A stretch of DNA of 37,243 bases, taken from positions 1-37,243 of the forward strand of contig JAAWQC010000024.1 in NCBI GenBank assembly GCA_022800315.1, written 5' to 3'. Positions 3,557 through 22,249 of the stretch are shown piece by piece. A program made the translations under genes and the position numbers. The notes under the pieces are model-generated. The model made no database searches. It was given only the letters and a program-made list of their open reading frames with translations, and was not told the DNA's origin. Within the stretch, counting starts at the first letter, position 1, and every line of letters starts with the position of its first letter. This DNA comes from Clostridiales bacterium (lineage in GTDB: Bacteria > Bacillota > Clostridia > Oscillospirales > Acutalibacteraceae).

Positions 3557-4195
3557 ATGGCCTATACCGGGACGAAGGCACGGATACTGGACGCGGCGCT
3601 GGACCTGTTTTCGGTTCAGGGGTTCGAGGGGGTGTCGGTCAAACAGATCGCCGCTGCCGTGGGTATCAAGGACAGCTCGCTTTACAAGCATTTTGCCAGC
3701 AAGCGGGAAATCTTCGACACCCTGCTGGAGCAGATGAACGAGCGTTATGCGGAAACCGCCGCACTTTATCAGCTGCCCCAGGGCCAGATCGTCCAGATGG
3801 CGAAGGAGTACGGCCGTGGGGACCTGGTATGGCTGAAAAAGGGCTGTGAAGCGATTTTTCTCTTCTTTCTGAAGGATCCTCAGGCCTCCCGGTTCCGCCG
3901 AATGCTGATGATCGAGCAGTATAAAAACAGCGAAGCCTCCGCCACCTTTCAAAGCTGGTTTGTCGACAGCGCCCTCCATTTCCAGACGGCCCTCTTCGGC
4001 GAAATGAGCAAGCAGGGCTATTTTCGCCCTGCCAATCCCGAAACGATGGCTTTGCAATTTTACGCCCCTTTTTTCCTGCTGCTCTGCCAATACGACGGCA
4101 AGCCGGAAAAGGAAGGCGAGGCTGTGCGGCGGCTGATGGCCCATGTCGAGCAGTTCGCCGCCGTCTATCAGATCGAAAGCGGGGAAAACAGATGA
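3557..4195 (+). CDS. TetR/AcrR-family transcriptional regulator
   Basis: The 212-residue protein starts at the ATG at 3557, with AAAGGAGG 6 nt upstream; the in-frame ATG at 3521 lies inside the operator and lacks a binding site. Residues about 6-50 form the TetR helix-turn-helix (ARILDAALDLFSVQGFEG, then VKQIAAAVGIKDSSLYKHF), which binds palindromic DNA as a dimer. The remaining helical part is a ligand-binding and dimer domain of unknown ligand. It lies 23 nt from the double palindrome, so autorepression is likely. Its stop overlaps the start of the radical SAM gene by 4 nt (ATGA), showing translational coupling and making that enzyme the probable regulated target. Confidence 0.95.
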   Translation: MAYTGTKARILDAALDLFSVQGFEGVSVKQIAAAVGIKDSSLYKHFASKREIFDTLLEQMNERYAETAALYQLPQGQIVQMAKEYGRGDLVWLKKGCEAIFLFFLKDPQASRFRRMLMIEQYKNSEASATFQSWFVDSALHFQTALFGEMSKQGYFRPANPETMALQFYAPFFLLLCQYDGKPEKEGEAVRRLMAHVEQFAAVYQIESGENR

Positions 4196-5280
4196 ATCTC
4201 AACCTTTTTATGAAAAACGGCATACAGGGTATCCTGCGGTCGATGAGCCGCTTCTATCTGGGCGATCCGGTGGGCCGCGCCTTCCTGGTGAAAATGCTGC
4301 TGCAAAGCAAAAAAAGCGCCGAACAGAGGGAACGCCATGAAAAGGCGGGCACTCACATCCCGCCGTTTCTGATCGCCAGCATCGCTTCGCGGTGCAACCT
4401 CCGCTGTGCGGGCTGTTATGCGCGGGCGGGCGGCGCCTGTGGTGAGGACGGGGCGGCGCGGGAGCTGACCGCCGCGCAGTGGGCGGATATCTTTGGGCAG
4501 GCCGCCGAGCTGGGCGTCTCCTTCATTTTACTGGCCGGCGGCGAACCGCTGATGCGGCGGGATATCCTCGAGGCCGCGGCCGCCACCCCGATCGTTTACC
4601 CGATCTTTACCAACGGCACCCTGCTGGACGGGGACACGCTTTCGCTGTTTGAGCAGCACCGGAACCTGATCCCTGTCCTCAGTATCGAGGGCGGCAGAAC
4701 CGCCACCGACGCCCGACGGGGGGCGGGGGTCTACGATCAGGTGGACGCGGCCATAGCCCGGCTGAGAGAGCGCGGCCTGTTGTATGGCGTTTCCATTACG
4801 GTGACCAAAGAAAACCAGCCCGTCGTGATGCGAACAGACTTCGTTTCCCGTCTGGAAAAGCAGGGGTGCGGCGGCGTCATTTATGTGGAATACGTACCGG
4901 TGGAGGCGGGTTCCGAGCACCTGGTGCTCGACGAGGCCGATCGGGTGCGGGCCGCGGACAGCGCCCGTGAACTCAAAGATAGCTTCCCCCAGATGGTGAT
5001 CCTCTCCTTCCCTGGGGATGAGGAAGCGATAGGAGGCTGTCTGGCGGCTGGCCGGGGATTCTTCCATATCAATCCCGCCGGCGGCGCGGAACCCTGTCCC
5101 TTCTCCCCCTACGCCCGGCAGAATCTGCAGGAACACTCCCTGCTTGAGGTACTGGGCTCGGCGTATTTCCGCAGACTTCGTTCGATCAGCGAGGGTGCGG
5201 GCGACCCTGCCGGCGGCTGCACTCTCTTTCAGCACAAGGACGAGGTGGAAGCTCTTTTGGCCCAGGAGGGCTGTTTCTGA
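4192..5280 (+). CDS. Radical SAM protein, probable auxiliary-cluster type
   Basis: A 362-residue radical SAM enzyme. The C68-x3-C72-x2-C75 motif (in SRCNLRCAGCYAR) binds the 4Fe-4S cluster that cleaves S-adenosylmethionine. LAGGEPLMR is the GGE motif of the family. The C-terminal part carries further cysteines (GGCLA, EPCPFSP, GGCTLF, EGCF), in the style of SPASM/twitch auxiliary clusters; exact ligand assignment is not possible by eye. It is translationally coupled to the TetR gene. No precursor peptide gene is seen beside it, so the substrate is unknown. The N-terminal 55 residues are helical and basic and could contact membrane or partner. The next gene has its own promoter. Confidence 0.92.
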   Translation: MNLNLFMKNGIQGILRSMSRFYLGDPVGRAFLVKMLLQSKKSAEQRERHEKAGTHIPPFLIASIASRCNLRCAGCYARAGGACGEDGAARELTAAQWADIFGQAAELGVSFILLAGGEPLMRRDILEAAAATPIVYPIFTNGTLLDGDTLSLFEQHRNLIPVLSIEGGRTATDARRGAGVYDQVDAAIARLRERGLLYGVSITVTKENQPVVMRTDFVSRLEKQGCGGVIYVEYVPVEAGSEHLVLDEADRVRAADSARELKDSFPQMVILSFPGDEEAIGGCLAAGRGFFHINPAGGAEPCPFSPYARQNLQEHSLLEVLGSAYFRRLRSISEGAGDPAGGCTLFQHKDEVEALLAQEGCF

Positions 5281-5299
5281 AAACACGAGAAATTACCTG

Positions 5300-5327
5300 T
5301 TGCATAAATAAAGGATTATGGTATGCT
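5300..5327 (+). promoter_or_regulatory. Promoter of the acyltransferase gene
   Basis: TTGCAT (5300-5305), a 16-nt spacer and TATGCT (5322-5327), 33 nt before the start codon. Confidence 0.65.
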
Positions 5328-5359
5328 AAACCAATAAAGAATGAGGGAGGCCTATCGCC

Positions 5360-6604
5360 ATGACAATGGAACGAGTGCTTGAGGTCCTGGGGACCCCGGA
5401 GCTTTTTGAACGCTATACTCCCGGTTTGGAACGCTTCAACGCCCAATGGACCCCCGGGGAGAAGGAACCGGTACTGGAAACCGCCAAATTGGGCTGGATG
5501 GCGGAGCAGGGCTTTATCGACAGCGCCTGTTTTGAAGATGTGGATACCTGCCTGAAAATGGTGGCGGCGGATGAGGAACTGGATTTCGTCCTGCGGTTCC
5601 TCGCCGACATGCTGTTTATCAGCGGTAAACCGTGGGATATGGACGTCTACTTCACACCTTCGCCGCCCGCTCTGGGCAAGTATGGCCCCACCTTCGCCCT
5701 GATCCTGTTCCTCTGCGCGCTGGAGGGCGGCGTTACCCGCGCCCGCCGGCACGGTATCCCCGAAGACATGGTGGCGCAGATGAAGGGCCCCTTTTTCGAT
5801 ATTACCGGCGGCAAGCCCGATCCGGTATGGGGCGCCCGCGGCGGGTTCCACTGGAATGTCAGCTGCTCACAGGGAACCATGTTCTTTGTGGACACCTACC
5901 GGTATGAGCTGCACACCATGCCCGACGGTTACCGCCTGTACCGCCGCCGTTCGGATGGCAAGCTGCTGACCGTCTATACCGCTGCCAACCGATTCGACGA
6001 GTTCGGCCAGTTCGCGTGGAGTGACGAGCAGGTGGCCTTCCGCACCGAAGCTTTCGGCAAAAAGCCCGGTGGTTACCCCATCCATCCGGAGGGCCGTGTC
6101 GTCAACCGCCCCCTGGAACTGTCTGAGGACGAGTGGGAGCCGGTCTTCTGCGAAGGCGACCGGTCGCTTGGCTACCATATCCCCAGCAAAATCCCCTATA
6201 CCATCGAATCCCTCCAGCATTCCTTTCAGGAAGCGTTGGAATTCTACAAAAAGTATTATAGCAAGCTGAATGTACGGGGAATTCAGTGTTATTCCTGGCT
6301 GTACAGCCCTCAGATGCGGGAGATCATGTCCGCTGGCAGCGGCATCAACCGGCTGAATTCCCACCTGTACCTCAGTCCCGTACCGTCGGGTCCCGATGGA
6401 TTTTACGAATTTGCCTTCCACACTGAGGGGGAATTCGATCCGGACACCGCCCCCGCCGATACCTCCCTGCAGCGGGGATTTATTGATTATATCCGTAAGG
6501 GCGGTCGGGTGCATAACGGTTTTATGTTCCTCCCCGCCGCGGATGTACCGCGTTTGTGTGACGATCCCCGGTCGCTCTACTGTTACGACCTGTTTGAGGA
6601 CTGA
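5360..6604 (+). CDS. Acyltransferase-like protein (NAT_N / GNAT_C type)
   Basis: A 414-residue cytosolic protein without signal peptide or membrane segment. Length and general pattern (an N-terminal helical part at about 1-130 with MLFISG, a middle region with GFHWNVSCSQGTMFFVDTYR, then a C-terminal GNAT-like half with QEALEFYKKYYSKLN and the late HNGFMFLP) resemble Firmicutes proteins annotated as acyltransferase domain-containing, with NAT_N and GNAT_C domains. No acetyl-CoA loop (Q/RxxGxG/A) is clear, so activity is not shown. The start has GAGGGAGG 9 nt upstream. It has its own promoter and a strong terminator, and is therefore a single-gene unit rather than part of the TetR operon. Confidence 0.6.
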   Translation: MTMERVLEVLGTPELFERYTPGLERFNAQWTPGEKEPVLETAKLGWMAEQGFIDSACFEDVDTCLKMVAADEELDFVLRFLADMLFISGKPWDMDVYFTPSPPALGKYGPTFALILFLCALEGGVTRARRHGIPEDMVAQMKGPFFDITGGKPDPVWGARGGFHWNVSCSQGTMFFVDTYRYELHTMPDGYRLYRRRSDGKLLTVYTAANRFDEFGQFAWSDEQVAFRTEAFGKKPGGYPIHPEGRVVNRPLELSEDEWEPVFCEGDRSLGYHIPSKIPYTIESLQHSFQEALEFYKKYYSKLNVRGIQCYSWLYSPQMREIMSAGSGINRLNSHLYLSPVPSGPDGFYEFAFHTEGEFDPDTAPADTSLQRGFIDYIRKGGRVHNGFMFLPAADVPRLCDDPRSLYCYDLFED

Positions 6605-11795: not shown

Positions 11796-11824
11796 TTTAC
11801 TTTTTCCGCGAAATCGTGTATAAT
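11796..11824 (+). promoter_or_regulatory. Promoter of the secreted-protein/ABC operon
   Basis: TTTACT (11796-11801), 17 nt, TATAAT (11819-11824), set in AT-rich DNA. It leaves a leader of about 145 nt before the first gene. Confidence 0.75.
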
Positions 11825-11974
11825 TTCAACAACACGTGCTTTTATAACATCTTTTCCCTATATTTTCCTTGTTTGTGCCATGAAACTCCAGCGCGTGTTT
11901 TGAAATATAGCCGCTTGGTTAGCGTACGGAACCGGCGGATTATATTAAAAAATATGATGTATATAAGGAGTGTA

Positions 11975-12415
11975 ATGAAAATGAAACGCAGCAAAAATCG
12001 GATGTCCAAAATTCTCTGCGGCCTGATGGCTGCGATGGCCCTGTGTTCGGCGGGTATGATGACCGTCAGCGCTTCCAACTACCATGACACCGACTTTGGG
12101 TTCCATTTTAACCGAGGATACAACAGGACTGAGGCACGGGCGAAAGAAGATGCTACCAGTGCGTTCATGAACTGCAAATGGGCAGATAACACCGTTTATA
12201 ATGCCCGTGTCTACGCCTCGCCTGACCTGACAGGTACCCCTTTCGACGTGTCCGGTGGTCATGTCTACCGTTTCACTCAAGGAACTCACGGCTATTTAAT
12301 CAATTATGCCTATGAAACAGCGCAACAATATGGCACCGATTGCTACGCCTTAATTCAGGGAGAACGGATAAGCGGTACTTTCGCCAACGGTACTTGGAGT
12401 CCCGACAGCATCTAA
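11975..12415 (+). CDS. Small secreted protein, DUF2712-like
   Basis: 146 residues from the ATG at 11975, with AAGGAG 4 nt upstream (ATG 11981 is an alternative with 10 nt). The N-terminus is a Sec signal: Lys/Arg region (KMKRSKNRMSK), hydrophobic core (ILCGLMAAMALCSAG), cleavage probably after TVSA, leaving a mature domain of about 111 residues. It has two cysteines (MNCKW, TDCYA) that could pair, a region of predicted beta structure, and the end GTWSPDS, which resembles Firmicutes DUF2712 proteins found beside ABC transporters; this family call is from memory of the pattern. It may be a bacteriocin-like or signalling product handled by the transporter downstream. No protein-tag or double-glycine leader is present. 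Confidence 0.75.
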   Translation: MKMKRSKNRMSKILCGLMAAMALCSAGMMTVSASNYHDTDFGFHFNRGYNRTEARAKEDATSAFMNCKWADNTVYNARVYASPDLTGTPFDVSGGHVYRFTQGTHGYLINYAYETAQQYGTDCYALIQGERISGTFANGTWSPDSI

Positions 12416-12427
12416 AGTTTTTTTAGG

Positions 12428-12473
12428 AAGGCGGCCGGCATGAGGCCTACATGTTTGCGCCGGCCGCCTTTTC
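12428..12473 (+). terminator. Partial terminator inside the operon
   Basis: AAGGCGGCCGGC (12428-12439) pairs with GCCGGCCGCCTT (12459-12470), followed by TT and then CC, a weak T-run. No promoter is clear before the next gene at 12500, so this looks like a leaky terminator making the first gene more abundant than the rest. Confidence 0.65.
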
Positions 12474-12499
12474 CTATATAAGTGAGAAGGAGGCGTTCG

Positions 12500-13345
12500 A
12501 TGAATAAGCCGAAACGTTGGATTCCCATCCTGCTTATTATGCTGGCGGTCTGCGTCTATACCTTTGTCTTTCATCCCGACGAAGAGCTGAAAGCCCTGCT
12601 TGACAATCCGTCTGCCCAGAATCCGCCCGGCGATTGGATGGATGACAGTGCAGCCTCCCTCGTTCAATCACCCGCACAAACCGGCGGCGAAATCGCCGCG
12701 TGGCGAACATCGGAGACCACCTCTTCCACCAACACCTCAGCAGATTCCACAACAACGACTCACACAGTCGACTCCACAACAGCCGAAACAGGAAGCCCGA
12801 CTGCCGCTGATTCTACCGTTGCATCAACAGTAGAACCGGCGCGAACCACCGCGCCGGTTCATATTGGTGGAGAGGGGTATCCCACCGTCTACACCCTCAA
12901 CACAGGGTACACGATCGGCCCCCTCCTGCTATCTAAAAGTCTGGAAGGCGCTAACCAGGGCAATTTTAACTATAATAAAAACAAGCAGCACGTAGATGAA
13001 CAGGGGACCCTGACCAGCGCCCATACCTACTGCTTCTTCGATATTACCATTGAAAACCTGGAGAACGCTGGGAGAGAATATCTGCTAAACAATATCTCTC
13101 TGTACGCAACCGAAAACGGAGCCAGGAAATACATTTATGAGCTGCGTTATTTCGATCAGGGGGCCGACCCCCATAAAACGGATTTTTTCCATGTGTTTGT
13201 GGCTGGCGGGGAAAAGGAGACCTACCGTGTGGGCCTGATTCTTGATGACGCGAGAATCCGCGAATACGGCTGGGTCCTTGCCATCAATCCGGAAGGGAAC
13301 CTGATGTTCGACTCAGCTCGCCTTATGTCCATTACCATGCCGTAA
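12500..13345 (+). CDS. Membrane-anchored extracytoplasmic protein, unknown
   Basis: 281 residues from the ATG at 12500 (AGAAGGAGG upstream). One N-terminal membrane helix (about 7-24) with positive residues before it places the rest outside. Residues about 60-120 are a Ser/Thr-rich linker (TTSSTNTSADSTTTT, then more), typical of cell-wall-spanning stalks. The C-terminal 155 residues look like a beta-sandwich of the DUF4352 kind (YCFFDITIENLENAGREYLLNNISLYA, then EKETYRVGLILDD), domains often found on anchored partner proteins of ABC systems. It is the first gene after the leaky terminator and 13 nt before the first permease. Function unknown; a substrate-binding or immunity role is possible. 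Confidence 0.7.
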   Translation: MNKPKRWIPILLIMLAVCVYTFVFHPDEELKALLDNPSAQNPPGDWMDDSAASLVQSPAQTGGEIAAWRTSETTSSTNTSADSTTTTHTVDSTTAETGSPTAADSTVASTVEPARTTAPVHIGGEGYPTVYTLNTGYTIGPLLLSKSLEGANQGNFNYNKNKQHVDEQGTLTSAHTYCFFDITIENLENAGREYLLNNISLYATENGARKYIYELRYFDQGADPHKTDFFHVFVAGGEKETYRVGLILDDARIREYGWVLAINPEGNLMFDSARLMSITMP

Positions 13346-13358
13346 GGAGGTCCCTCTC

Positions 13359-14183
13359 GTGAGAAAACTGCTGAAAATTGAGCTGCGGCGCGTCTTTGCC
13401 TCGCCTGCTCTCTGGGCCGCCCTGCTGGTGGGGCTGGCCATTGTCGTTGTGCAGTATGCGCAGGACGTATTGCCTATGGTCAATTATTTGGATCTCAGCG
13501 TGGGAGGAAAAGAACTGGGGATGTACCCCCATTCGGTTTTTAACAAGTGGATAGGGGGAGGTATGAGTTCCTTCACCCCGTATCTGTACTTTCTTTTGCT
13601 TCCGCTGCTGGCCACCATCCCGTTCGGCGGCTCCTTTTATGAGGATTTGAACAGTGGGCTGGTGAAAAACCTCTTTATTAAAACGGAAAAGAAAAACTAT
13701 TATGGCGCTAAGTATCTGGCCGTGTTTTTATCGGGCGGCTTGGTCATTCTAATCCCCCTGCTGGTCAATCTGGCCCTCACCGCCGCCACCCTGCCTTCTT
13801 TGCTGCCCGAAGTCGGAACCCAGCAGTTCCCTCTGTTCGCTACCAGTATGGGGGCCTCCCTGTTTTACTCCCATCCCTACGGATTTGTCTTCGCCTATCT
13901 GCTGCTGATTTTTGTTTTCAGCGGCTTTCTGGCAACCATCGCCCTGTGTGTCAGTTTTTACGTCAAGAACCGATTTGTGGTGGTACTGTCCCCTTTTATC
14001 CTTTGTCTGTTCGTCCATTCGCTGTGCCAGCTGCTCGGGAACTCCTCCTTGGACCCCACCGACTTTCTCAACCCCTCCAACGCCAATACCACTCTGCCGC
14101 TCGTTCTGGGTGAGCTAATCGTAATCGCCATACTGACCGTTTTTTTATTCGCTGTCAAGGGGAGCCGCGATGATACCTTCTAA
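13359..14183 (+). CDS. ABC-2-like membrane protein 1
   Basis: 274 residues with about six membrane helices: near 20-38, 68-90, 122-145, 175-205, 205-225 and 248-268. The soluble N-terminal MRKLLKIELRRVFASPALW is typical of ABC-2 type permeases, as is the amphipathic segment FYEDLNSGLVKNLFIKTEKKNYYGAKYLA between helices 2 and 3. The start has AAGGAGG upstream. It lies 13 nt after the anchored protein and overlaps the next gene by 14 nt, so the operon is translationally coupled. With the ATPase at 15837 it would form a transporter exporting a peptide or moving substrate out of the membrane. Confidence 0.8.
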   Translation: MRKLLKIELRRVFASPALWAALLVGLAIVVVQYAQDVLPMVNYLDLSVGGKELGMYPHSVFNKWIGGGMSSFTPYLYFLLLPLLATIPFGGSFYEDLNSGLVKNLFIKTEKKNYYGAKYLAVFLSGGLVILIPLLVNLALTAATLPSLLPEVGTQQFPLFATSMGASLFYSHPYGFVFAYLLLIFVFSGFLATIALCVSFYVKNRFVVVLSPFILCLFVHSLCQLLGNSSLDPTDFLNPSNANTTLPLVLGELIVIAILTVFLFAVKGSRDDTF

Positions 14184-14949
14184 AACGCGCGGCTTTATCC
14201 GCCGCATCGGGTACGCCTTTGGTTCTCTGCGCATGCTGTCCCTTTTTTACGCTTTCCTGATACCGCTGTTTCTATATATACGTTTTCATTTGGCGCTAAA
14301 GTCGGCGGTGTTCTACCACCTGCCCTTCAGTACGGCCGACGCCTTCGTCGCTGTGAGCGATCCTTCCTTTTTCGCTCTGATCCTGGTGCCGATGACCCTG
14401 TTTTTTGTCTGTTTACTTATTCGCCATGACTTCGCCCTCACCGCCGTTTTACGCGGACGGCATAAAGCCCGTATTTTCTTGAGGCAGGTCCTGACGATCG
14501 CTTTGTATCTCCTCGCCTTCATCCTGTATACCGGGGTGTGGACAGGCGTGTTCGCGCGGTTCTATTGCACCGGCGGAGTCAATTGGGATCAGCTGGCTAG
14601 CCTGTATTTTCTGAGTACGAAGCAAACCACCCTCCAGCCCCTCTGGCGTATCCTGCTTGCCTTTTTCATCTCCAGCTTTCTTTCTCTTCTGGCGGCCAAT
14701 GCCCTGCTGCTGCTGCTGCGATGGACGACCGACCGATATATTCTCTCCTGGATTCTGCTTCTTACCGTCTGCGTCGTCGATTCCAAGACCGAAAAGGGCC
14801 TGTTTTTCTTTCCCTCCGGCGTCTGGTATGACAATTGGGCGTCGCCCTGGCCGATCGAACGGGTTTTTCTGCTACCCCTCGTCTGCCTCGCAGCCATCTT
14901 GATCCTCGGGGTCTGGTATGCTAAACGGAAGGATTTTTTGCATGGATAA
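14170..14949 (+). CDS. Multi-pass membrane protein 2 of ABC operon
   Basis: 259 residues with about six hydrophobic segments (roughly 20-37, 65-85, 108-128, 158-178, 190-205 and 230-250). No recognised domain, but topology and gene position suggest an ABC-2 related permease or an accessory membrane partner. The start overlaps the previous gene by 14 nt; its stop overlaps the next start by 8 nt. A basic loop between helices 2 and 3 (RHDFALTAVLRGRHKARIFLRQ) resembles the coupling region of ABC-2 permeases. The presence of three different membrane proteins with one ATPase is unusual. Confidence 0.75.
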   Translation: MIPSKTRGFIRRIGYAFGSLRMLSLFYAFLIPLFLYIRFHLALKSAVFYHLPFSTADAFVAVSDPSFFALILVPMTLFFVCLLIRHDFALTAVLRGRHKARIFLRQVLTIALYLLAFILYTGVWTGVFARFYCTGGVNWDQLASLYFLSTKQTTLQPLWRILLAFFISSFLSLLAANALLLLLRWTTDRYILSWILLLTVCVVDSKTEKGLFFFPSGVWYDNWASPWPIERVFLLPLVCLAAILILGVWYAKRKDFLHG

Positions 14950-15811
14950 TCAACGCAAACCGGTGGGCGGCGTTACCCGTATGATACGGCAGATCCGGTA
15001 CGACTGTTCAGCCGGAATCGTGCGGGTATGGTATAAGTTCCTGCCGGTCTCACTCGTATTCTTATTAGCCGCCGCGCTCTTTTATCGGGAAGCCGATGCT
15101 TTGCGCTGTCAGCAGCTAACCGCTTCTGCCCCAACGCTTGCCGATCTGGTGATCCATATGTTTCAGGGGATGAAGGTCTACGATCCTTCCTCAGGCAGCG
15201 AATTCGACATACCGGTGGTCTACCTGTTTATCAGCCTCTACACCGCCTATCTCATCGGAAATTACGCGCAAAAAGACCTGCGCAGCCACGGTCTGTATAT
15301 ATTGCTTCGATCAAAAAAAAGGGGTCAGTGGTGGCTGAGCAAATGTGTCTGGAACGTTGCCACCGTCCTTGTTTTTTACCTTTTTGCCTATCTGGGTATC
15401 GTGCTGGCGGCGATGTTTACCGGTGCCCTGTCGTTTCAACCATCCGGTGATATCCATCGGATGGTAGCGGATATAGCGGAAGAGGTCTTTCAAAATAACA
15501 GGTGGGTCTTCATTGTCGTCCTGATGCCGATACTTACTTCTATTGCGCTGGCCCTCCTCCAGATGGCCCTCTCTTTTTTCCTCAAGCCGGTATTCAGCTT
15601 TATCGTCATCGTCTGTATCGTCGTTGTCTCCGCATATTACTGCTCACCCTTCTGGATCGGCAATTACGCCATGCTGCTGCGCAGCGATCTGGTCATCCCC
15701 GATGGCATCCCGATTTATGTGGCTGTGGTTACCGACGTGCTGGTCATAGCGGTGTCCATCGCAGTGGGTTACGGGTATTTCAGACGCTGCGATATTTTAG
15801 ATAAACAATAG
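14942..15811 (+). CDS. Multi-pass membrane protein 3 of ABC operon
   Basis: 289 residues from the ATG at 14942, which overlaps the previous stop. About six membrane helices, with the first near 35-55 and a cluster at about 180-285. The cytosolic N-terminus (QRKPVGGVTRMIRQIRYDCSAG) and the segment RSHGLYILLRSKKRGQWWLSK, like an ABC-2 coupling loop, support a permease role. It ends 25 nt before the ATPase gene, with GGAGCGG-type binding site material between. Residue identity to the two other membrane proteins is low by eye, so they are not recent duplicates. Confidence 0.75.
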   Translation: MDNQRKPVGGVTRMIRQIRYDCSAGIVRVWYKFLPVSLVFLLAAALFYREADALRCQQLTASAPTLADLVIHMFQGMKVYDPSSGSEFDIPVVYLFISLYTAYLIGNYAQKDLRSHGLYILLRSKKRGQWWLSKCVWNVATVLVFYLFAYLGIVLAAMFTGALSFQPSGDIHRMVADIAEEVFQNNRWVFIVVLMPILTSIALALLQMALSFFLKPVFSFIVIVCIVVVSAYYCSPFWIGNYAMLLRSDLVIPDGIPIYVAVVTDVLVIAVSIAVGYGYFRRCDILDKQ

Positions 15812-15836
15812 GAGCGGTGGGAAAGGACAATAGTTT

Positions 15837-16514
15837 ATGCTGATCGATATTAACGACTATACCAAAATCATCAACGGCGCTACCGTGCTGGATCACGTTA
15901 CCCTACATATGGAGGGCGGCCGCGTGTATGGCCTGAAAGGTCCGAACGGCAGCGGAAAAACCATGCTGATGCGGGCCGTCTGCGGCCTCATTAACCCGAC
16001 GAGCGGTTCGGTGGTCATTGACGGCGAGACACTGGGAAAGGATATTTCCTTTCCCCGAAGTATCGGCGCGCTGCTGGAAAATCCGGCGTTCATCTCCAGC
16101 TATACCGGCTTTCAGAATTTGAAGCTGATGGCTTCCATACAGGGTCTCATCGATGACCATATGGTGGAGGAAGCCATTGCCTGTGTCGGGCTCGATCCTC
16201 ACGATAAAAAGAAATACCGCAAATACTCTCTGGGGATGAAGCAGCGGCTGGGCATCGCCAATGCGATCATGGAAAATCCGGAGCTGCTCCTCCTGGACGA
16301 GCCGTTGAACGCCCTCGACAAAGGCGGCGTTGCGATCGTCCATCAGCTTCTCCACGAGTTCCGTGACCGAAAGGCGATTATTCTGTTGTCCTGTCACGAT
16401 TCACAGGAGCTTGTATCCCTGTCCGACGAAATCATCACGATTGAAAACGGCAGAATCGCCGGGCAGGAAACCGTGGATAAATCTAAAATGGAGACGGCGG
16501 GTGATGCACAATGA
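15837..16514 (+). CDS. ABC transporter ATP-binding protein
   Basis: 225 residues, one nucleotide-binding domain. Walker A is GPNGSGKT (35-42); the signature is YSLGMKQRLGIA, the LSxGMKQR form usual in peptide, bacteriocin and antibiotic exporters; Walker B with catalytic Glu is LLLLDEP; the H-loop is SCHDS. It powers transport by pairing two copies under the permeases. The start ATG at 15837 is supported by the family start; the stop overlaps the next gene by 4 nt. As the only ATPase in the operon, it probably serves all three membrane proteins. Confidence 0.95.
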   Translation: MLIDINDYTKIINGATVLDHVTLHMEGGRVYGLKGPNGSGKTMLMRAVCGLINPTSGSVVIDGETLGKDISFPRSIGALLENPAFISSYTGFQNLKLMASIQGLIDDHMVEEAIACVGLDPHDKKKYRKYSLGMKQRLGIANAIMENPELLLLDEPLNALDKGGVAIVHQLLHEFRDRKAIILLSCHDSQELVSLSDEIITIENGRIAGQETVDKSKMETAGDAQ

Positions 16515-17110
16515 CGAAGGGAAAACGCGCTGTAATCGCCTGTTTGGCGGCAGCAGGAGTTATTGCCTGTCTTGCCGCTTTTATCCCCCGTTATCAGCAA
16601 ATCAATCAAAAATACCCCCCTCCTCCTGTTGAGACATACGCTATCGGAGAGCCACTGTCTTACAAGGGGGTAGAGGTCACCGTACAGGAGTCTCTTATTG
16701 CCGCCTGGCCGGATATGCCCGCTCTGTTTCCTGACACCACGTTCACCTATAACCCGGTGACCAACGGGGAAGTCGGCGCCGAGGAACAGATGAAGCTGGT
16801 TCTCGTAACAGTGAATCTTAAAAACACCGGAGAGGAAAGTCAGAGCATCACTCTGTATACCATGGTAGCCAAAACGCTGACCTGGCGCAACGGACTGAAT
16901 CTGGAGCTTTTCATGGACCTCAACACCACCGCGGATCATACCCCCACGATCCGGCCCGCTCTGGCCCCCGGTGAGGAAATGACGGTTATTCTTCCCTACA
17001 CCGCGATTAAACAGCAGTTTCCTCCCGGTGAATGGGCCGCTTTTAAAGACCTTTCCTTTGAATTGCAGTTTGACCTGTATCCTGTAAAAAAGATATTTAA
17101 GCTTACCTGA
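16511..17110 (+). CDS. Lipoprotein-like or anchored protein, DUF4352-like
   Basis: 199 residues, coupled to the ATPase gene by ATGA overlap. The N-terminus has KGKR, then a hydrophobic stretch; VIAC ending at C20 fits a lipobox, so it may be lipidated, otherwise a single membrane helix. The mature part (about 40-199) has the pattern of a DUF4352-like beta-sandwich: YAIGEPLSYKGVEVTVQ, then KLVLVTVNLKNTGEESQSITLY. It resembles the domain in the protein at 12500, so two related anchored proteins bracket the transporter. A proline run (KYPPPPVE) forms a short stalk. Possible roles are substrate capture or self-protection. Confidence 0.7.
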   Translation: MTKGKRAVIACLAAAGVIACLAAFIPRYQQINQKYPPPPVETYAIGEPLSYKGVEVTVQESLIAAWPDMPALFPDTTFTYNPVTNGEVGAEEQMKLVLVTVNLKNTGEESQSITLYTMVAKTLTWRNGLNLELFMDLNTTADHTPTIRPALAPGEEMTVILPYTAIKQQFPPGEWAAFKDLSFELQFDLYPVKKIFKLT

Positions 17111-17112
17111 GG

Positions 17113-17150
17113 AAAAGCCGTGGAAAGAAGATTCTTTCCACGGCTTTTTT
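17113..17150. terminator. Operon terminator
   Basis: AAAAGCCGTGGAAAGAA pairs with its inverse ending in GGCTTTTTT, loop GA. It ends the plus-strand operon and may also stop minus-strand obgE transcripts. Confidence 0.9.
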
Positions 17151-20194: not shown

Positions 20195-22171
20195 TTATCT
20201 GGCCTTGGCTTTGCGTGTGAACAGCAGCACACCGGCAGAAGCCGCCAGCGTCAGAGCGCCAAGCAGCAGCCACGAGGTATTTTCACCGGTCTTTGGATTG
20301 TCGCCCTTGCCGGTGGTGGCCGAAGTGGCGGCTGTACCGTCCGTCGAAACGGTGGAATCGGTCGCGTCGGTCCCGGTCGGTTCAGTGGCGATGGGATCGG
20401 AAGGATCGGTTACGCTGGGTTCGGTGGGATCGGTGGGTTTCGGGTCGGTGGGGGCGGGCTTCTCCACCCGTTTCATGAGGGAGATATCGTTCCAGGTCAG
20501 GGCCCGGCCTGCATCGCCGTAAACCGACAGGGTGATTTTGGTCAGCCTGATCTTGCCGGTGCTGCCCAGCTTGTCGGACAGATTGAGGTATTCGTCGATG
20601 GCGCTGTCGATATCGGTTTCGGAGCCGTAAACCATCTGGGAAATCTGCACAGAATGCTCCTGGCCCTCTTCATCGGTATAGAAAAGATAGCCGTTGGCGG
20701 TGCCGCCGTCGGGGGTCATTTTCAGATGCAGATAGGGATTAGCGGACAAATCCACCTCCTGATCCAGCGCATAAGCGACGGAGGGCCAATCGATATCGCT
20801 GGCGGCGGCGCGGGTAAGGGTCAGGCTGCCGTCCTCGTTCAGGGTCACATCGGCCACACCCAGGTCAGGAGTAACAGCGTCGGCCGAGGCGGGCAGCAGG
20901 GAAGCGATCTGCTCGTAGGCCGGAGGCTCCGGGTCGGCATCGCCGGTTTTGGTCACGCTCAGTTCGCGGATAATGACCGGTTTGCCCTTGGCGCCCACGG
21001 CGAAAACCTTAACGCCGGAGAACAGGACGTTGCCATCCTCGTCAATAGCGGATGCCGGAATCCCCAGCTTAGAGAGGGGAATGGACCCCTTGACCGTCTG
21101 GCCAGCCACGACGTCGTCGCCGCTCAGCTGAAGGCTGGGATAAAATTTCTTGATCACGCGGGGCAACGACACATAATTCTGGTCATAGGCGAGGGTGGGA
21201 GTGGAACCATTCATGAACAGTACGATGTTTGTCCCCGCCCCGTCGGTGGTGAAATCAAAATTGAGAGTACTGCCCTCCACCGGGATGTTGACACCCTTGT
21301 CCAGGGAAGGGGAGTAGTGATAATCGGGCCACAGACCAGTGGTGTTGGCAACGTGCAGGGCACCGTCCACATTTTTCGCCTGAATCGAACCCTCCACAGG
21401 CTCCATCCAGTCGGCGGGGTCAAAAGAGATGATGCTCTTTGTCCACTGGCCGGGCTCCACGTCCGGCCGCTGAGGACGCTCCACCGGGGGGACGCTGGGG
21501 TCCCGGCGATAGTGTTCTTCCAGATAGGCGGTGAGGGTCGCGGCATAGGCGTCACGACCCACATCCGAGAGATGGACACCGTCAGCGACCAGGAATTCGC
21601 TGAGCTCATAGTCGGCGCACATCTTGCGCATATCCACCAGATCGACAGCTTTGGCCGCGGCAACCTCGCGGATCACGGCGTTATACTCGTCGAGGGCGGC
21701 GGTGATCCCCCCCTGTCCGTAATCGCCGGGATAGGCATCCTCGCGGACATAGGGCGCGGTGAACAGGACCGGCACCGCGTCCAGCGCCTCCACCTTATCG
21801 ACGATGGTCTCGATGTTCTTTTTAAAGTTGGGCAGGGATACCTTGGGCTGAGTGCCCGAAAGACGGACGAAATCGTTGGTGCCGAAGGCGATGGTGACGA
21901 AATCGGGGTCGTTCGCCGCCACGTCCCGTTCAAAGCGGGCCAGCCCGTCCGCCGACGTATTGCCGCCGATACCGGCGTTGACCAGCGCCATGTTCAGGTT
22001 TTCCGCCGCCAGCTGGGACCAGCTGCTCAGCGCGGTCAGGCTGTCGCCGAATGCGACCAGTGTCTTGCCATCCAGCACCGGCGCGTCCGCCGCGGGAGCG
22101 GCGGTGGCGGCCACGGCAGCGCCCGACGCCGCGATGACCAGCGCCATCGCGCTGGCAATCCATTTTTTCAT
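20195..22171 (-). CDS. Cell-wall-anchored SGNH/GDSL hydrolase
   Basis: 658 residues from the ATG at 22171 (GGGAGG 7 nt upstream). Signal peptide about 1-27. The SGNH esterase domain covers about 35-235: block I FGDS with catalytic S44, block II GGN (G70-N71), block III GTND with N99, block V DGVH with D197 and H200. Two beta-rich, probably carbohydrate-binding regions follow (about 240-400 and 425-570), then a Pro/Thr-rich wall-spanning linker with DPKPTDPTEPS-type repeats, and a sorting signal: NPKTG (625-629), hydrophobic helix and RKAKAR tail. NPKTG in place of LPXTG suggests a sortase of another specificity. It is probably a polysaccharide deacetylesterase at the cell surface. Its promoter is at 22221-22249. 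Confidence 0.9.
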   Translation of the reverse strand: MKKWIASAMALVIAASGAAVAATAAPAADAPVLDGKTLVAFGDSLTALSSWSQLAAENLNMALVNAGIGGNTSADGLARFERDVAANDPDFVTIAFGTNDFVRLSGTQPKVSLPNFKKNIETIVDKVEALDAVPVLFTAPYVREDAYPGDYGQGGITAALDEYNAVIREVAAAKAVDLVDMRKMCADYELSEFLVADGVHLSDVGRDAYAATLTAYLEEHYRRDPSVPPVERPQRPDVEPGQWTKSIISFDPADWMEPVEGSIQAKNVDGALHVANTTGLWPDYHYSPSLDKGVNIPVEGSTLNFDFTTDGAGTNIVLFMNGSTPTLAYDQNYVSLPRVIKKFYPSLQLSGDDVVAGQTVKGSIPLSKLGIPASAIDEDGNVLFSGVKVFAVGAKGKPVIIRELSVTKTGDADPEPPAYEQIASLLPASADAVTPDLGVADVTLNEDGSLTLTRAAASDIDWPSVAYALDQEVDLSANPYLHLKMTPDGGTANGYLFYTDEEGQEHSVQISQMVYGSETDIDSAIDEYLNLSDKLGSTGKIRLTKITLSVYGDAGRALTWNDISLMKRVEKPAPTDPKPTDPTEPSVTDPSDPIATEPTGTDATDSTVSTDGTAATSATTGKGDNPKTGENTSWLLLGALTLAASAGVLLFTRKAKAR

Positions 22172-22220
22172 GTTCATTCCTCCCATAAAATTGAAACTGT
22201 TGCCTGATTCCAACGGTTTT

Positions 22221-22249
22221 AGTATAGCAACCCTCTTTTCAAAAAACAA
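22221..22249 (-). promoter_or_regulatory. SGNH hydrolase promoter
   Basis: TTGTTT (22249-22244), a 17-nt spacer and TATACT (22226-22221). Confidence 0.7.

Follow-up and report, generated by a model that had tools for sequence, protein, structure and literature searches.

A DUF2712 operon of the Acutalibacteraceae as a candidate bacteriocin locus with putative self-protection

What does a small secreted protein do when its gene is kept beside an ATP-binding cassette (ABC) transporter, and why is the transporter so often found without it? The question is raised by seven open reading frames (ORFs), g1 to g7, all on the + strand at positions 11975-17110 of a 37,243-nucleotide stretch of DNA that we call the window (contig JAAWQC010000024.1 of assembly GCA_022800315.1, from a Clostridiales bacterium of the Acutalibacteraceae). 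The first gene encodes a protein of the DUF2712 family, g2 and g7 encode membrane-anchored extracytoplasmic proteins, g3, g4 and g5 encode multi-pass proteins, and g6 encodes the ATPase. By analogy with known systems, we give an even chance to the reading that g1 is a secreted bacteriocin-like protein and that g2-g7 supply an ABC transporter and two anchored proteins that protect the producer. The initial annotation of this DNA had named a bacteriocin-like product with export or immunity as one possible role. That class is the one best supported here, and immunity fits better than export, because g1 brings a Sec-type signal of its own and copies of the ABC unit that lack g1 are frequent.

Linkage of g1 to the transporter

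Do these genes belong together? The initial annotation had offered synteny of the seven-gene set as the check on its description, and the description was not refuted: at all 21 g1 loci that could be assessed, the transporter lies alongside. Sixteen of these loci, the window included, were found through g1; the other five (L006, L012, L015, L098 and L099) were found through the transporter and so could not fail. The 21 include truncated or split copies of g1 (G188:C41, Lachnospira eligens and G110) and leave out a remnant on contig C69 of the window genome. Three further g1 matches were not assessable, namely G188:C62 at a contig edge, G331:C122 on a 2-kb contig, and G331:C115, where the last 30 positions of g1 stand at the contig start and the one open side carries other genes. 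As judged by sequence comparison, the seven genes are a conserved operon, and its conservation exceeds chance, for it is kept across genomes and the window genome has three more copies of the transporter.

The linkage of g1 to the transporter runs one way. In a sample of 200 genomes of the window's family, its own genome included, the g1 profile matches 15 at E<=1e-3, 12 of them clearly (E<=1e-5) and the remaining three only over the first 31-51 positions. The g5 profile matches 19 of the 200, and the 19 contain every one of the 12 clear g1 genomes; the chance of such nesting is 8e-15 under independence of the genomes, which does not hold. By Pfam alone DUF2712 is found in seven of the 200, six of them among the 19 with g5. 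In the seventh, G164, the DUF2712 sequence is more typical of the family, and its neighbours are g6, g3 and a pair of membrane ORFs without labels. Wider samples gave two of 391 class genomes by Pfam and two of 398 phylum genomes by profile, the window's own in each.

The transporter, for its part, often stands without g1. A g5 scan with one genome per species gave 16 loci, which span Lachnospiraceae, Oscillospiraceae, Parasporobacterium, Eggerthella, Olsenella, Collinsella and others. All of these loci have g3 and g5, in 15 the ATPase is visible (L001 ends at a contig edge), and four have g1; in the 16 operons that were compared, g3, g5 and g6 occur together every time. No g1 was detected beside the transporter in seven of the 19 family genomes and at 12 of the 16 named loci, with the limit that L003, L010 and L014 begin fewer than 100 bases from the operon, so that an upstream g1 could be missed. 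Collinsella, Eggerthella and Vescimonas have g1, and Olsenella and a Gemmiger relative have the transporter alone. Frequent absence of g1 is what one would expect of an immunity or resistance function.

How might g1 come and go? Two of the three further transporter copies in the window genome lie in tandem on contig C20 and have a g1 apiece, and the third, on C43, has none. The C69 remnant (L024:5320-6078) consists of a g1 end with an internal stop, a palindrome 3' of it, and an isolated g7-like gene. In G188, a congener of the window genome whose assembly is 78% complete, the unit occupies the corresponding place in the chromosome, with g1 truncated at its 5' end and g3 matches split between two frames, perhaps through decay or through an assembly error; another congener, G069, gave no g1 or g5 match. 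The gene order is g2-g1-g2-g3 in G070 and g2-g3 in its congener G189 (L056:8170-10297, L078:11895-12596). In G070 one g2 is 91% identical to the other over 796 bp, and the remainder that this genome shares with G189 is 94% identical over 4.6 kb; the comparison suggests that g1 was gained or lost together with a repeat of g2. Loss of a presumed weapon with retention of a presumed shield would fit a bacteriocin locus.

The g1 protein and the stem behind its gene

The product of g1 (11975..12415, + strand) has 146 amino acids, with a Sec-type signal whose region runs basic-hydrophobic-VSAS, then a predicted jelly-roll beta-sandwich, and a C-terminal GTWSPDSI. Taken alone, g1 scores 13.3 bits against DUF2712 (PF10916), under the cut-off of 22. 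We assign it to the family because two of its paralogues pass that cut-off (35.0 and 29.9 bits), a protein 98% identical to it carries PF10916, and so do 69 of the 69 matches to the g1 profile. The small first product with a Sec-type signal and a DUF2712-like end, as first annotated, is borne out. The motifs of the family are a T-x-x-R-x-K-x-D-x-S-S-x-Y region and the terminal W-S-P-D-S, and the AlphaFold model of g1 has a mean predicted local distance difference test score (pLDDT) of 84.8, with 95 of the 146 residues at 90 or more.

Is g1 expressed on a par with the genes that follow it? The spacing between g1 and g2 is 84 bp and contains a terminator-like stem-loop with a short U run (12428..12474, + strand, z -3.8). 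We folded the 80 nt 3' of each gene in 16 operons, with 100 shuffles and a threshold of z <= -2.5, and found a strong stem directly 3' of g1 in 14 of the 16, the stem of L015 lying at the threshold. The same threshold was reached upstream of g1 in 1/16, after g2 in 1/15, after g3 in 0/16, after g5 in 1/16 and after g6 in 2/16 (g4 was left out), and after g7, where terminators are expected, in 7/15. An alternative count, with 200 shuffles and the truncated G188 copy included, gave a stem after g1 in 14 of 17; two further loci, folded without shuffles, have a stem in L. eligens and none in Vescimonas. In the window the stem is likely a partial terminator or a 3' stabiliser of the g1 message. The stems vary in sequence from operon to operon and not all end in a U run, so that some may act as partial terminators and others may stabilise the 3' end of the message. 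Either role would raise g1 over the membrane genes, and with the strong hairpin in so many of the operons, g1 is probably transcribed in excess.

This bears on the limits and the coupling of the operon. The starts had been annotated as overlapping and the set as made together; that may hold for g2-g7, and g1 is probably partly uncoupled by the gap and its stem, the overlapping pairs being g3/g4, g4/g5 and g6/g7 only. A promoter and a strong terminator had been given as the bounds. The terminator is confirmed (17117..17150, + strand, a hairpin plus T6, z -7.6). A promoter-like site, TTTACT-17-TATAAT (11796..11824, + strand, 10/12 consensus positions), is present, but it counts as weak evidence, since the eight such sites found in the region are not clearly in excess of the 5.0 +/- 2.2 in shuffles.

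The membrane unit and its nearest relatives

The ATPase g6 (15837..16514, + strand; PF00005 at 1.8e-28) has its Walker A at residues 35-42 and SLGMKQR at residues 131-137, in agreement with the single ATPase with a GMKQR signature first described. At the Q-loop site it has Glu81, within ALLENPAF, and so an E loop. The title of a 2010 paper by Okuda et al., cited in PMC7038271, reportedly names the E loop as conserved in lantibiotic-immunity transporters. Glu occupies the site in 39 of 39 g6 rows, 36 of them distinct (L005/L058, L009/L080 and L011/L084 are each one contig), while eight of nine other ATPases at the same loci have Gln. For a wider control, 40 of the 87 ABC matches of the window genome were picked by hand from outside the g6 family; among the 37 for which a frame was found, the residue is Gln in 24, Glu in six and another residue in six, with one gap, and two of the non-Gln rows have Gln adjacent to the site and are probably misaligned. 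The E loop is thus invariant in g6, and other ATPases have it less often.

Are the three multi-pass proteins unrelated to one another, as first annotated? They are an ABC-2-type permease with a GTG start (g3, 13359..14183), a third permease-like protein (g4, 14170..14949) and a DUF2705-like permease (g5, 14942..15811), all on the + strand. Comparison by hhalign gave 96% for g4 against the g5 family and 80% for g3 against g5, with no relationship detectable between g3 and g4 (0.6%), so that g4 and g5 are probably homologous, g3 and g5 possibly so, and the earlier description needs correction. ABC2_membrane_4 matches three of 15 members of the g3 family (best 1e-6), and TIGR03733, lanti_perm_MutG, weakly matches one of 15 (1.1e-3); the window g3 itself has no Pfam match. 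DUF2705 matches eight of 15 members of the g5 family (best 7.8e-5), and the window g5 stands below the cut-off at 0.019. Of the 21 g1 loci, 10 have a labelled g4, and paralogue A of contig C20 has only a remnant of one; the g4/g5 labels, like those of g2/g7, cross-recruit in the last search rounds and were decided by the best score and by position.

The two anchored extracytoplasmic proteins of the initial annotation are upheld, each with one N-terminal membrane helix and an extracytoplasmic domain. The g2 protein (12500..13345, + strand) is of the DUF5027/DUF4352 type, with a Thr/Ser-rich linker, and in several relatives it starts with what by eye is a lipoprotein-like signal. DUF5027 matches six of 11 members of its family (best 1.2e-22) and DUF4352 three of 11, with no Pfam match for the window g2 itself. 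The g7 protein (16511..17110, + strand) has an N-terminal membrane helix and a DUF5028/DUF4352-type beta-sandwich; DUF5028 matches three of 13 relatives, and DUF4352 matches too. Its model, with a pLDDT of 93.1, matches DUF4352-type beta-sandwiches such as YxkC and YjhA, and the DUF4352-type proteins (YjhA, YxkC, YcdA) are among the nearest known counterparts. The g2 and g7 profiles match each other at 97%, a relationship that the earlier reading did not contain.

The operon is flanked on both sides by translation genes, labelled by eye as rplA, rplK, nusG and secE on the one side and obg, rpmA and rplU on the other. No lantibiotic precursor or modification gene was recognised among these neighbours, which were read by eye without a family scan. 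Elsewhere in the window, at 4192-6604, a radical S-adenosylmethionine (SAM)-like gene is closely followed by a gene for a 414-aa protein of no obvious family, and at 20195-22249 a GDSL-like secreted esterase has a C-terminal NPKTG-hydrophobic-basic tail that resembles a sortase anchor; both were read by eye. In Coriobacteriia, multi-pass proteins are encoded directly 5' of the unit (L013:5596-8220, L012:51-824, L015:5572-7749), the L013 protein ending by eye in a LuxR-type helix-turn-helix. They are possibly regulators of the unit.

Which described systems does the operon resemble? Lantibiotic producers usually protect themselves with a membrane lipoprotein, LanI, that binds the peptide, and an ABC transporter, LanFEG, that expels it from the membrane, as one account summarises (PMC5786555). 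The likeness to NisFEG-NisI and SpaFEG-SpaI lies in an E-loop ATPase, two unlike multi-pass permeases and a membrane-anchored extracytoplasmic protein with a predicted beta fold. The window unit differs in having a third permease, two anchored DUF4352-type proteins, no recognised lantibiotic genes, and as its candidate product a folded protein of about 110 residues in place of a modified peptide. Bacteriocins of the lactococcin 972 type (mediterrocin, streptococcin B) are likewise small beta-structured proteins that carry a Sec signal and have genes for ABC and membrane proteins in their clusters, and they are thought to leave by Sec (PMC12345188, PMC11796350). The differences are that none of 13 g1 relatives has a lactococcin-972 match (Pfam, E<=1, where the HMMER filters drop weak matches), none of the seven window proteins matches DUF1430, and g6, with 91.9 bits, is far under the TIGR03608 cut-off of 254.85.

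A nearer relative is found in Bacillus subtilis, where DUF2712 and DUF2705 both match. YybN, which we take to be a DUF2712 protein, belongs there to the yybN operon (yybNMLKJ), which like the window unit has an ATPase with two separate permeases. The loci sboA, sunA and sdpA are known antimicrobial loci. A table of earlier Rok targets names the yybN operon along with these three and gives yybN, yybM, yybL and yybK as one putative unit (PMC2978689). The operon is described as bound by Rok, without a known function, and its horizontal acquisition is postulated (PMC2978689, PMC11841835). A model of YybJ2KL makes it a type V ABC exporter, again with no function assigned (PMC11466899), a yybN strain showed moderate dipyridyl sensitivity (PMC6212828), and one table lists yybN without more (PMC4591507). 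A difference is that these descriptions, in the parts that deal with the operon, name no DUF5027 or DUF5028 partner; the names DUF2712, DUF2705, DUF5027 and DUF5028 were not found in the literature searched. The initial annotation, which knew of no described system of this composition, is thus right in part, and has to be qualified since both DUFs match in B. subtilis and the yybN operon is in print without a function. The closest published relative is that uncharacterised operon; the kind is known, and the anchored partners and the hairpin are newly added.

What the operon would do

If g1 is a bacteriocin-like protein, how would the locus work? The g1 protein would be exported by Sec and cut by signal peptidase near VSA-S, and the mature beta-sandwich, of about 110 residues, would act on the envelope of neighbouring Gram-positive cells. 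On the producer's own surface, the predicted beta-sandwich domains of g2 and g7 would bind it from their membrane anchors in the manner of LanI, and a complex of two ATPases with g3 and g5, and with g4 where present, would clear it from the membrane in the manner of LanFEG. The stem 3' of g1 would end or trim many transcripts, giving more secreted protein than membrane complex. This proposal draws on the gene set, the linkage, the pattern of second and orphan copies, the E loop and the g1 hairpin, all of which sequence comparison establishes.

Several points set limits to it. The best NCBIfam match of g6 is TIGR03740, lantibiotic protection, which speaks for the reading, but its 173.8 bits are under the cut-off of 309.75, and the E loop is not exclusive to the g6 family. 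Beyond the g6 ATPase and the one weak MutG match, no sequence link to LanFEG/LanI or to lactococcin 972 was found, so that the comparison is one of likeness and not of membership. In lactococcin-972-type clusters, moreover, the roles of the partner proteins are themselves called putative or unverified where they are discussed (PMC12345188, PMC11796350). Finally, the settings of the unit in two relatives suit another function equally well. In L. eligens (NC_012780.1) the unit lies between an annotated cyclic-lactone autoinducer peptide and the genes for AgrB, LytTR and a kinase. There, at L098:1764-2239, the autoinducer ORF shares its DNA, in a different frame, with a g1-like ORF that is not annotated and lacks a signal. 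In Vescimonas fastidiosa (NZ_AP023417.1, L099:2000-8051) genes for a sigma-70-family factor and a DUF4367 protein lie 5' of a g1-g3-g5-g6-g7 unit, and beyond the unit come genes for an S26 signal peptidase and for a site-specific integrase; the record names the g7 homologue a DUF5028 protein. Such settings would suit weapons under density or stress control, and would suit signalling just as well.

Signalling is in fact the main rival, though we consider it unlikely. Here g1 would be an autocrine signal in envelope sensing or cell-cell signalling, with the ABC unit and the anchored sensors reporting its level. The Agr-like module (AgrB, LytTR, histidine kinase) beside the L. eligens unit and the extracytoplasmic function (ECF)-type sigma factor and DUF4367 protein beside that of Vescimonas speak for it, and two anchored domains per unit suit sensing. 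But the window operon has no recognised kinase or regulator, the stem 3' of g1 points rather to a bulk product, and the transporter persists where g1 is absent.

That persistence tells also against a dedicated exporter or assembly machine, in which the ABC complex would secrete g1 or anchor it as a surface or matrix protein. The one-way linkage of g1 to the transporter would suit this rival, as would the carbohydrate-binding modules among the weak fold matches of g1. Yet g1 has its own Sec-type signal, and at 12 loci with a transporter and no g1 (L003, L010 and L014 fell outside the scan) no convincing replacement secreted ORF was found; we hold this rival to be less probable than signalling. 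Least probable is a general antimicrobial-peptide resistance operon of the CprABC kind with g1 as a secreted decoy or binding helper, for although Cpr-type systems have one ATPase and two permeases of six transmembrane segments, a lipoprotein gene adjoins cprABC and the C43 copy in the window genome is without g1, a secreted protein with its own stem is absent from those systems as there described (PMC5786555).

How far might the bacteriocin reading extend? It is possible, though we put it somewhat below an even chance, that DUF2712 proteins make up a widespread class of bacteriocins, secreted by Sec and folded as beta-sandwiches, in gut Clostridia, Coriobacteriia and bacilli, and that each comes with a LanFEG-like immunity transporter of two or three permeases, anchored Ig-like binders, and a conserved hairpin that sets the stoichiometry of weapon to shield, the yybN operon of B. 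subtilis included. Four families that have no function, DUF2712, DUF2705, DUF5027 and DUF5028, are here brought together in a single unit that can be tested. If the reading is true, Collinsella, Eggerthella and Vescimonas would have a weapon-and-immunity system in common, of which Olsenella and the Gemmiger relative would hold the transporter alone, and the B. subtilis operon that still appears in print without a function would be given one, testable in that laboratory species.

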